Assembly (NCBI RefSeq): GCF_027011145.1 | Contig: NZ_JALVAO010000040.1 | Coordinates: 1-63,741, forward strand | Origin: Thermococcus sp. | GTDB taxonomy: Archaea; Methanobacteriota_B; Thermococci; Thermococcales; Thermococcaceae | Direction: 5' to 3' | Length of the DNA stretch: 63,741 bases | Part shown: in pieces, positions 56,975 to 59,543 of the stretch | Layout of the letters: every line of letters starts with the position of its first letter | Position numbering within the stretch: the stretch's first letter is position 1 | Notes under the pieces: model-generated | Databases searched by the model: none | The model's input: only the letters and a program-made list of their open reading frames with translations | What the model was told of the DNA's origin: nothing | Position numbers and translations under genes: made by a program

Positions 56975-58093
56975 ATGGAGGCCTTTGACAGGGAGGAACT
57001 CACTATCATCAGAAAGTTCGAGCACATAGAACACTGCCTCAAGAGGAACGTTCAGGCTCATGTGAGCAATGGCTTTGAAGATGTGCACTTCGTTCACATG
57101 AGTCTGCCCGAGATAGACAAGGACGAAATAGACCTGAGCGTCGAGTTTCTGGGCAGGCGCTTCGATTATCCAATCTTCATAGCCGGCATGACGGGGGGAA
57201 CTAAGGGTTCCCAGCTGGCCGGAAGGATAAACAAGACCCTTGCCAAAGCCGCGCAGGAGCTCAACATACCGATGGGCGTTGGAAGTCAGAGGGCGATGAT
57301 AAGGAAGCCGGAAACCTGGGAGAGCTACTACGTTAGGGACGTTGCCCCCGATGTTTTCCTCGTCGGCAACCTTGGCGCCCCCCAGTTCTCTGAAACGATA
57401 CCGGAGCGCTACGGTATCGAGGAGGCCCTTAAAGCTGTTGAAACAATTCAGGCCGATGCTTTGGCGATACACATGAACCCCCTCCAGGAGAGCGTCCAGC
57501 CCGAGGGAGATACTCAATACCGGGGCGTTCTCAAAGCGTTGGCGGAGCTCAAGGCCGAGTTCCCGTATCCGATAATAGCGAAGGAAACCGGTGCCGGGGT
57601 CTCCAAGGAAGTCGCGATAAGGCTTGAGAGCATAGGGATTGATGCCATCGATGTTGGTGGACTCGGCGGGACGAGCTGGAGCGCCGTGGAGTACTACCGG
57701 GCGAAGGACGAGCTCGGAAGAAACTTGGCCCTGCGCTTCTGGGACTGGGGGATTAAAACGGCCATAAGCGTTGCTGAAGTTCGCTACTCGACGGATTTGC
57801 CCATCATAGCCACAGGTGGAATGCGCGACGGAATAACGATGGCCAAGGCCTTGGCAATGGGTGCAACCTTTGCCGGAGTGGCGTTGCCCCTCTTAAAGCC
57901 CGCCGTGAAGGGTGACGTTGAAGGCGTCATAAAAATCCTCAGGAGGTACATCGAGGAGATAAGGAACGCGATGTTTCTGGTAGGTGCCAAGAACGTCGAG
58001 GAGCTCAGGAAGGTCCCGCTCGTGATTACGGGCTTCACCCGGGAGTGGCTTGAGCAGAGGATTGACTTATCTGCGTATCTCAGGAATAGGTGA
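56975..58093 (+). CDS. fni: Type 2 isopentenyl-diphosphate isomerase (FMN-dependent)
   Basis: The gene encodes 372 residues: [15 protein letters not shown] at the N-terminus, [56 protein letters not shown] and GVGGLGG-type [25 protein letters not shown]. It interconverts IPP and DMAPP with FMN and NADPH. GGTGGTGTG precedes ATG 56975. Confidence 0.94.
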
Positions 58094-58156
58094 GCTCCTT
58101 TTCTTTCCTAAAATGCACACCTTTTTAAACCCCTGAACAGAGTAAAGAGCAACGCA

Positions 58157-58184
58157 GCCCCACGCCTCAAGAGGGGCCTGGGGC
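58157..58184 (+). promoter_or_regulatory. Strong hairpin at the predicted 5' end of the RNase J mRNA
   Basis: GCCCCACGCCTC (58157-58168) pairs with GGGGCCTGGGGC (58173-58184) around an AAGA loop: ten Watson-Crick pairs, one wobble and one C-C mismatch. The TATA box CTTTTTAAAC at 58121-58130 predicts transcription from about 58150, so the stem is nearly at the mRNA's 5' end. The ribosome site GGGAGG (58185-58190) begins right after it. It could protect the message or serve in autoregulation. Confidence 0.55.
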
Positions 58185-58199
58185 GGGAGGATGATGCAG

Positions 58200-59543
58200 A
58201 TGATACGAATCTACACAATCAGTGGTTACGAGGAAGTCGGCAAGAACATGACCGCCGTTGGCTATTCCGACGGCAGGAAGGAGGAAGTCGTGATAATAGA
58301 CATGGGCATAATGCTCGACAGGGTAATGATTCACGAGGACACGAGCATTCAGAAGTTTTCGGATAAAGAACTCCAGAAGCTCGGGGCAATTCCCGACGAC
58401 AGAATCCTTTGGAAAAGCAGGAACAAGAAGGTCGTCGCGATAGCCCTCACCCACGGCCACCTTGACCACATAGGGGCAATAGCCAAGCTCGCGCCCCACT
58501 ACCCGGACACGCCTGTCTATGGGACGCCCTACACGATTAAGCTCGCAAAGGCAGAGGTTAAGAGCGAGGAGTATTTTGAAGTGAAAAACCCCATGTACGA
58601 AACGAACTTCGGGGAAATCGTCCAGGTGAGCGAGAACATCGCAATAGAGTTCATCCGTTCAACCCATTCAATTCCACAGGCCTCAATGGTTGCTATACAC
58701 ACGCCTGATGGGATAGTCCTCCATACCGGAGATTTTAAGTTCGACAACAACAACCCCCTCGGCGAGAGGCCGGACTACAAGAGGCTGAAGGAGCTCGGTA
58801 AGGAGGGCGTTAAGGTTCTAATTGCTGAATCCACCCGCGTTGCCGAGCCGACGAAAACGCCGAGTGAGGCCGTTGCCCAGATGCTCCTCGAGGACTTCTT
58901 TCTCTACGAGGGCATGGACGAGAAGGGACTGATAGCCACTACCTTCGCGAGCCACATCTTCCGCCTTCAGGAGCTCATCTGGATAGCCAACAAGATGGGC
59001 AGGCAGGCCGTCCTCGTCGGTCGCTCGCTGGCGAAGTACACGGGCATAGCGAAACAGCTCGGCCTCATAAAGATGAAGGGGGCTAGGGCCGTTAGGAGCC
59101 CAAACGCCGTTAGGAAGGTCCTGAAGGAGGTTTCCCAGGCGAGGGAAAACTACCTCCTCATAGTTACTGGCCATCAGGGGGAGCCCGGAGCGGTTTTAAC
59201 GAGGATGGCCGACGGTGAACTCTACGACATCGGCAAGGACGATACCGTCGTCTTCTCCGCGGGGACGATACCCAACCCCCTAAACTACGCCCAGAGGTAC
59301 AAACTCGAGACAAAGCTGAAGATGAGGGGCGTCAGAATGATTAAGGACCTCCACGTTTCTGGACATGCAAGCAGGGAAGACCACCGCTACCTCGTCAGAA
59401 TGCTCAATCCGGAGAACATCGTCCCGGCCCACGGCGAGTTCAGAATGCTAACCCACTACGCTGAGCTCGCTGAGGAAGAGGGTTACATGATTGGAAAGGA
59501 CGTCTTCGTTTCGAGGAACGGCTACGTCGTTGAGATTCCGTGA
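58200..59543 (+). CDS. Archaeal RNase J (5'-3' exoribonuclease, metallo-beta-lactamase/beta-CASP)
   Basis: The gene encodes 447 residues: MIRIYTISGYEEVGKNMTAV, the zinc motif THGHLDHIG (85-90 core), HTGDFKFDNN, the beta-CASP signatures ATTFASHIFRLQ and HVSGHASREDH, and PAHGEFRM near the end. Euryarchaeal aRNase J degrades RNA from 5' monophosphate ends. ATG 58200 is 9 nt from GGGAGG; ATGs at 58191 and 58194 touch that site. It lies within the isoprenoid gene row. Confidence 0.93.
   Translation: MIRIYTISGYEEVGKNMTAVGYSDGRKEEVVIIDMGIMLDRVMIHEDTSIQKFSDKELQKLGAIPDDRILWKSRNKKVVAIALTHGHLDHIGAIAKLAPHYPDTPVYGTPYTIKLAKAEVKSEEYFEVKNPMYETNFGEIVQVSENIAIEFIRSTHSIPQASMVAIHTPDGIVLHTGDFKFDNNNPLGERPDYKRLKELGKEGVKVLIAESTRVAEPTKTPSEAVAQMLLEDFFLYEGMDEKGLIATTFASHIFRLQELIWIANKMGRQAVLVGRSLAKYTGIAKQLGLIKMKGARAVRSPNAVRKVLKEVSQARENYLLIVTGHQGEPGAVLTRMADGELYDIGKDDTVVFSAGTIPNPLNYAQRYKLETKLKMRGVRMIKDLHVSGHASREDHRYLVRMLNPENIVPAHGEFRMLTHYAELAEEEGYMIGKDVFVSRNGYVVEIP

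Follow-up and report, generated by a model that had tools for sequence, protein, structure and literature searches.

The ompA mRNA offers an example of a stabilizing stem-loop at a 5' terminus. Stem-loops of the ompA, papA, and aprE type resemble the structure described here in that the stem lies at or near the mRNA 5' end behind a short overhang (predicted in our case), but ours occurs at one gene across a family, carries a conserved pyrimidine mismatch, and has a stabilizing role that is proposed. In Escherichia coli, a stem-loop in the 5' untranslated region of rne, encoding RNase E, likewise acts in cis in the leader of a gene for a major decay RNase, as outlined in PMC10303841 and PMC3997798; aRNase J, the archaeal 5'-3' exoribonuclease considered here, belongs to a different enzyme family and a different domain of life, and its binding to the leader and the ensuing decay are proposed. 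In Bacillus subtilis, RNase Y limits its own rny mRNA and RNase J1 trims the leader, but control operates through endonucleolytic cleavage within a 164-nt leader and the first part of the reading frame, with no conserved terminal stem in the account outlined in PMC10303841. Among archaea, the L7Ae leader likewise forms a stem-loop, a k-turn, for which autogenous control is proposed (outlined in PMC6298567), whereas the aRNase J leaders, inspected by eye, contained no k-turn (i.e., a three-nucleotide bulge with tandem G·A pairs) and have a 1×1 mismatch as their conserved feature. Structured RNAs derived from Thermococcales leaders also include sRk28, sRk33, and sRk61 of Pyrococcus abyssi, which come from other loci according to Table 1 of PMC3124441. 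In a literature search whose scope left out supplements and most subscription journals, no title or abstract opening among the matches listed dealt with the present element. RNase leader elements as such are known; this one differs in that it is archaeal, lies on the gene of a 5'-3' exonuclease, and comes in two exchangeable architectures.

We analyzed a 63,741-nt stretch of Thermococcus DNA (referred to here as the window), in which a hairpin lies between the promoter and the coding region of an aRNase J gene (Table 1). The product belongs to the RNase J family (TIGR00649 profile, 525.9 bits against a cutoff of 400, for the 450-amino-acid frame from 58191), as a preliminary description of the locus had supposed. 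The hairpin consists of 11 pairs and one C·C mismatch, with 12 positions per arm, which bears out the 12-position GC-rich stem with an AAGA loop in that description. Its two other structural claims also stood: the predicted start, placed from the TATA box, leaves 6 nt ahead of the stem, and GGGAGG begins at 58185, directly 3' of the stem, so that no gap separates the stem from the ribosome site.

TABLE 1 Features of the aRNase J promoter, leader, and coding region in the window
Feature	Position	Strand	Basis
TATA box, TTTTTAAA	58122-58129	+	Read in the sequence, within the promoter TGCACACCTTTTTAAACC
Predicted transcription start, A	58151	+	Inferred: base 29 nt past the first T of the TATA box
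Predicted leader, 49 nt	58151-58199	+	TATA spacing (start) and folding
Leader hairpin (6 bp, C·C mismatch, 5 bp, AAGA loop)	58157-58184	+	Folding and conservation
Hairpin, 5' arm	58157-58168	+	
Hairpin, AAGA loop	58169-58172	+	
Hairpin, 3' arm	58173-58184	+	
Mismatch, 5' side (C; partner 58178)	58163	+	Fold and relatives
Mismatch, 3' side (C; partner 58163)	58178	+	Fold and relatives
Shine-Dalgarno (SD) sequence GGAGG	58186-58190	+	Read in the sequence
aRNase J coding sequence, 447 amino acids, conserved start	58200-59543	+	TIGR00649 profile; start from orthologue comparison

Three in-frame ATGs lie within 58191 to 58202, and the mechanical start of the open reading frame is the ATG at 58191. 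A start there would give the SD sequence zero spacing; the orthologues, which share the N-terminus M-I-[RKTNS]-[IV]-[YH]-T, point to the ATG at 58200, 9 nt after GGAGG. The promoter, or a close form of it, was seen by eye ahead of most orthologues, including most of those with a single hairpin. Neither sigma-70 type promoters nor terminator-like sites were found in 57900 to 58400 (0 of each).

Regarding stability, the 28-nt hairpin had a predicted energy of -20.4 kcal/mol (z, -3.59; 0 of 200 shuffles as good) and was the single lowest-energy stretch among 42,474 stretches of 30 nt (3-nt steps, both strands, whole window). Values for the 49-nt leader were less extreme (z, -2.28; 3 of 200 shuffles as good), and the 80-nt interval given in the preliminary description (58121 to 58200) was ordinary (z, -0.65; 55 of 200). 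The bare pattern (i.e., 6 bp, a pyrimidine mismatch, and at least 4 bp, with G-U allowed) is not rare, with 24 matches in the window when both strands are searched and overlaps counted; among these, the leader hairpin has the most G-C pairs. A control scan, in which leaders varied in length and control stretches were 60 to 62 nt, found the pattern in 63 of 68 distinct leaders (the misses being L100, L105, L107, L159, and L167) and in 46 of 3,400 shuffles. It occurred in none of 21 leaders of idsA (9 of 30 loci were lost because the start was not found) and at 21 of 528 TATA-like sites in 400 kb of one relative, where overlapping sites were counted singly and the target was counted twice. The energy rank in the window, the z-score of the hairpin, and the shuffle and control counts speak against a chance hairpin, which was rejected. 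At 85°C, predicted energies were modest (median, -4.7 kcal/mol for single-hairpin and -1.7 kcal/mol for two-hairpin leaders), and two single-hairpin leaders were predicted to be unfolded.

We compared the leader with those in 94 genomes of the window's family, taken to be Thermococcaceae since the nearest named loci belong to Thermococcus (98% identity), and obtained 86 aRNase J orthologues with readable leaders; the other eight genomes comprised one with a 3' fragment only (G053), three with weak matches, and four with no match. The 86 leaders fell into a single-hairpin class (class A; 71 loci, including the window locus and three imperfect ones) and a two-hairpin class (class B; 14 loci), with one locus in neither. 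The exception, L152 (the aRNase J gene of G008, genus code g3), has neither the usual promoter spacing nor the leader structure. Class A arms vary from CCCCAYGCCTC/GAGGCYTGGGG to CCUUAUGCUC/GAGCUUAGAGG and CCCCGUGCCC/GGGCUCGGGG. In class B, the first hairpin is closed by a CCC/GGG stem starting 2 nt past the predicted transcription start, and the mismatch sits in the second hairpin. The mismatch scan covered 69 distinct leaders (L152 included) and the alignments covered 65, since they start 4 nt later, omit L152, and hold identical stretches once; counts of spacing, leader folds, and pattern controls omit L152 (68 distinct leaders).

The stem noted in the window recurs in nearly all 86 leaders with its pairing kept. 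When leaders were aligned by sequence only, the proportion of cells that pair was 86.6% in class A (54 distinct rows; 28 to 68% in slid versions) and 97.1% in class B (11 rows; 33 to 49% in slid versions). Both sides changed in 8 of the 19 class B pairs; in the closing stem of that class, one of three pairs had such a change, in a single row. Of 68 scored class A loci, 53 have A-U and 15 have G-C as the pair under the mismatch, and this pair changed at least three times on the gene tree; the outermost G-C pair of the window hairpin was kept in only 17 of the 54 class A rows. The covariation that the preliminary description had asked about was borne out in part. Compensatory changes occur in both classes. 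In class A, shuffles were beaten by the number of paired cells, the number of cells with changes on both sides, and the covariation score, although relatedness among sequences can produce such a result even where no structure exists. They were not beaten by the count of pairs with changes on both sides (5, compared with a mean of 4.7 in shuffles) or by that of further pair types (12, compared with 13.3). RNAalifold called only 3 pairs on the class A sequence-only alignment, a low count that we attribute to the misalignment of lineages that have an upper stem of 4 bp or carry a bulged G. On this comparative evidence, leader pairing is under selection in both classes and is kept through sequence change.

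An inverted repeat at about +7 to +34 relative to the predicted start, adjoining a conserved promoter, might also be a DNA operator for a transcription factor that binds just downstream of the start. This reading is disfavored, and we regard it as most improbable, because arm sequences differ between lineages while the pairing stays, because the scanned leaders include G-U pairs, a bulge, and loops of 3 to 7 nt, and because the two-hairpin class differs in both sequence and layout.

To describe the distribution of the element, covariance models of class A (R1) and class B (R2) were searched against the 94 genomes. R1 matched 70 and R2 matched 14 of them, all at the start of aRNase J; given that the models were built from these leaders, matches there are expected by construction, and the absence of others is the informative part. 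No second strong copy was detected in any of the 94 genomes with these models, which scored 59 and 45 candidates per genome under stricter filters that weak copies could escape; elsewhere, there were three weak places (E, 0.05 to 0.06). A regulon was rejected accordingly, as no other strong match appeared among the candidates scored. A known RNA family was likewise rejected, since Rfam 15 gave no match up to an E value of 1 for window positions 57900 to 58500 or for nine relatives of both classes. Outside the family, just 2 of the 59 aRNase J leaders examined from other archaea had the pattern, in AU-rich form, which indicates that aRNase J in general needs no such element; it was present in 19 of 21 loci titled Thermococcus, Thermococcaceae, or Thermococci. 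Methanobrevibacter-type aRNase J leaders (L041, L047, L049 to L052, L055, and L067) share a different conserved stretch, roughly TTTACGGAAAA...AAGGAGG, with no stem evident by eye.

We take PAB1751 to be the aRNase J gene of P. abyssi. Table 1 of PMC3124441, a study with 82 candidates, names no neighbor recognized as aRNase J, and we consider it very unlikely that a processed leader fragment works elsewhere as a small RNA that the structure would serve, even though the same source proposes leader-derived small RNAs in that organism.

The most distinctive feature of the stem is its mismatch. A 1×1 pyrimidine·pyrimidine mismatch was scored in 82 of the 86 loci (C·C, 55; U·U, 26; U·C, 1) by a scan that was designed around the pattern and requires the mismatch, so the count is biased and a closed pair would register as a miss. 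By eye, however, none of the four unscored loci has a closed pair: L100 retains U·U on a lower stem of reduced length, L159 contains a single bulged base, L167 is degenerate, and the element is absent from L152. Two further loci, L105 and L107, pass the scan only with a 4-bp lower stem. The pair above the mismatch is always G-C (65 distinct leaders scored with the mismatch). Switches between C·C and U·U numbered at least nine on the coding-sequence tree, and 6 changes fell within class A; the tree was built quickly, and support was poor at 21 of its 83 inner branches. A plain blocking stem, as envisaged in the preliminary description, does not explain why a pyrimidine mismatch is conserved. 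Because selection for stability alone would hardly retain it, we infer that the mismatch serves as a recognition site with some reader.

The same observations bear on whether the stem is a constitutive stabilizer of the ompA type, giving an important mRNA a longer life with neither feedback nor a specific reader. The stem does lie near the predicted 5' end behind a short predicted overhang, and a review of bacterial systems outlines how 5' structures stabilize mRNA and notes that B. subtilis RppH requires two or more unpaired nucleotides at the 5' end (PMC3997798). A stabilizer should, however, tolerate or even prefer a closed pair, contrary to the retention and repeated switching of the mismatch, and the restriction to one gene in the R1 and R2 searches also speaks against it. 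Stable stems are available elsewhere: 400 kb of one relative held 19 places as stable as -18.5 kcal/mol (including the two strands of the target), 10 of which beat that relative's own aRNase J hairpin, yet only two of the 19 had an upstream TATA-like site, namely, the aRNase J leader and a place in L200 that by eye is no leader. We therefore consider a constitutive stabilizer rather unlikely.

The position of the element also proved to be constrained. From the first T of the TATA box to the mismatch, the distance was 40 to 42 nt in all 54 scored distinct class A leaders, whereas the distance from the stem to the ATG in the same leaders ranged from 15 to 27 nt (15 to 18 nt in 41). Because the former is nearly fixed and the latter varies, the element is, as its spacing indicates, anchored at the predicted mRNA 5' end. 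At the position 29 nt past the first T of the TATA box, 63 of the 68 distinct leaders, that of the window among them, have an A, which is likely the transcription start. Promoters of Thermococcus onnurineus have the TATA box at -30 to -20, a pyrimidine at -1, and purine-rich starts, as outlined in PMC5316973. If transcription does start at this A, the aRNase J leaders (predicted medians, 50 nt in class A and 82 nt in class B) are long, given the median leader lengths of 12 and 16 nt outlined for Thermococcus in PMC5316973 and PMC4247193. Minimum-energy folds at 37°C from the predicted A left 0 to 7 unpaired 5' nucleotides in class A and 2 to 5 in class B, some of these counts depending on lone outer pairs (e.g., in the window, 2 nt by the fold and 6 nt before the core stem).

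The SD sequence was mostly predicted to be open at 37°C (median probability of being unpaired, 0.82 in class A and 0.55 in class B), and general occlusion of the ribosome site was rejected as a shared feature. The suggestion that the stem gates access to this site thus failed as a common design, but it retains some room in the minority of leaders with a probability below 0.5 (10 of 57 single-hairpin and 5 of 11 two-hairpin leaders). This minority, together with the closeness of the last GGAG (starting 3 to 14 nt past the last of the five lower pairs) and a conserved mismatch that suggests a reader, would suit an operator bound by a different protein or by a ligand that governs initiation at the ribosome site close by, in the manner proposed for L7Ae and its own leader. 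We judge such an operator to be unlikely, given that spacing from the stem to the SD sequence and ATG is more variable than promoter spacing, that the SD sequence is mostly open, and that neither a regulon among the R1 and R2 matches nor an Rfam match was found.

Because pairing, mismatch, and promoter distance are all kept and strong matches occur only at aRNase J, the leader is, on comparative grounds, a real cis-acting RNA element of the aRNase J gene in Thermococcaceae. It has the makings of an RNase-gene leader element, i.e., a conserved structure, in cis, at aRNase J only, in genome searches of limited capacity with strict filters. In the best reading, to which we give slightly less than an even chance, the 5'-terminal structure protects the mRNA against 5'-3' decay and is recognized by way of its mismatch, probably in feedback by aRNase J. 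A short structured 5' end would resist the entry of a 5'-3' exonuclease or a 5'-pyrophosphatase, and the aRNase J message may be shielded from its own enzyme because its 5' end is too short and too structured for easy entry. The mismatch would be recognized, in the simplest case, by aRNase J or its partners. Free aRNase J would then bind its own leader and lower its own synthesis, either via decay or via hindered initiation just downstream, and the result would be a feedback loop resembling that of RNase E on rne. Autogenous control fits a cis element confined to one gene, that of an RNase, as for RNase E in the outline of PMC10303841. Counting against this shielding-and-feedback reading, the half-life argument is drawn from bacteria, and the 6 unpaired nucleotides before the core stem in the window may let an exonuclease start. 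Further points against it are the near absence of the pattern from aRNase J leaders of other archaea, the family loci that have no element (L152) or escape the scan (L100, L159, and L167), the modest stability predicted at 85°C, the seldom-kept outermost pair, the two weaker pair measures and the low RNAalifold count in class A, and the ordinary z-score of the 80-nt interval. The more specific proposal, in which aRNase J itself reads its leader via the pyrimidine·pyrimidine mismatch and sets its own level, with two interchangeable architectures presenting the same mismatch, is possible but doubtful. If true, an archaeal 5'-3' exoribonuclease would be autoregulated by an RNA element. The element is compact, conserved, and located on the exonuclease's own gene in a group with genetic tools, and the mismatch can be closed or swapped, offering a clean test of its role.

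On the aRNase J gene tree, which was built quickly, single- and two-hairpin leaders replaced one another at least six times, which suggests that promoter and leader have been swapped together. The loci involved are L121, L135, L149, L150, and L153 to L158; for example, L153 lies within a two-hairpin group (support, 87 to 97). Upstream of the promoter, the window sequence (58094 to 58121) looks unrelated to that of the near relatives L083, L084, and L086, although the leaders are nearly identical. The gene for IDI-2 was found upstream of aRNase J in 62 of the 86 loci, with up to 1,500 bases examined and fewer for many loci.
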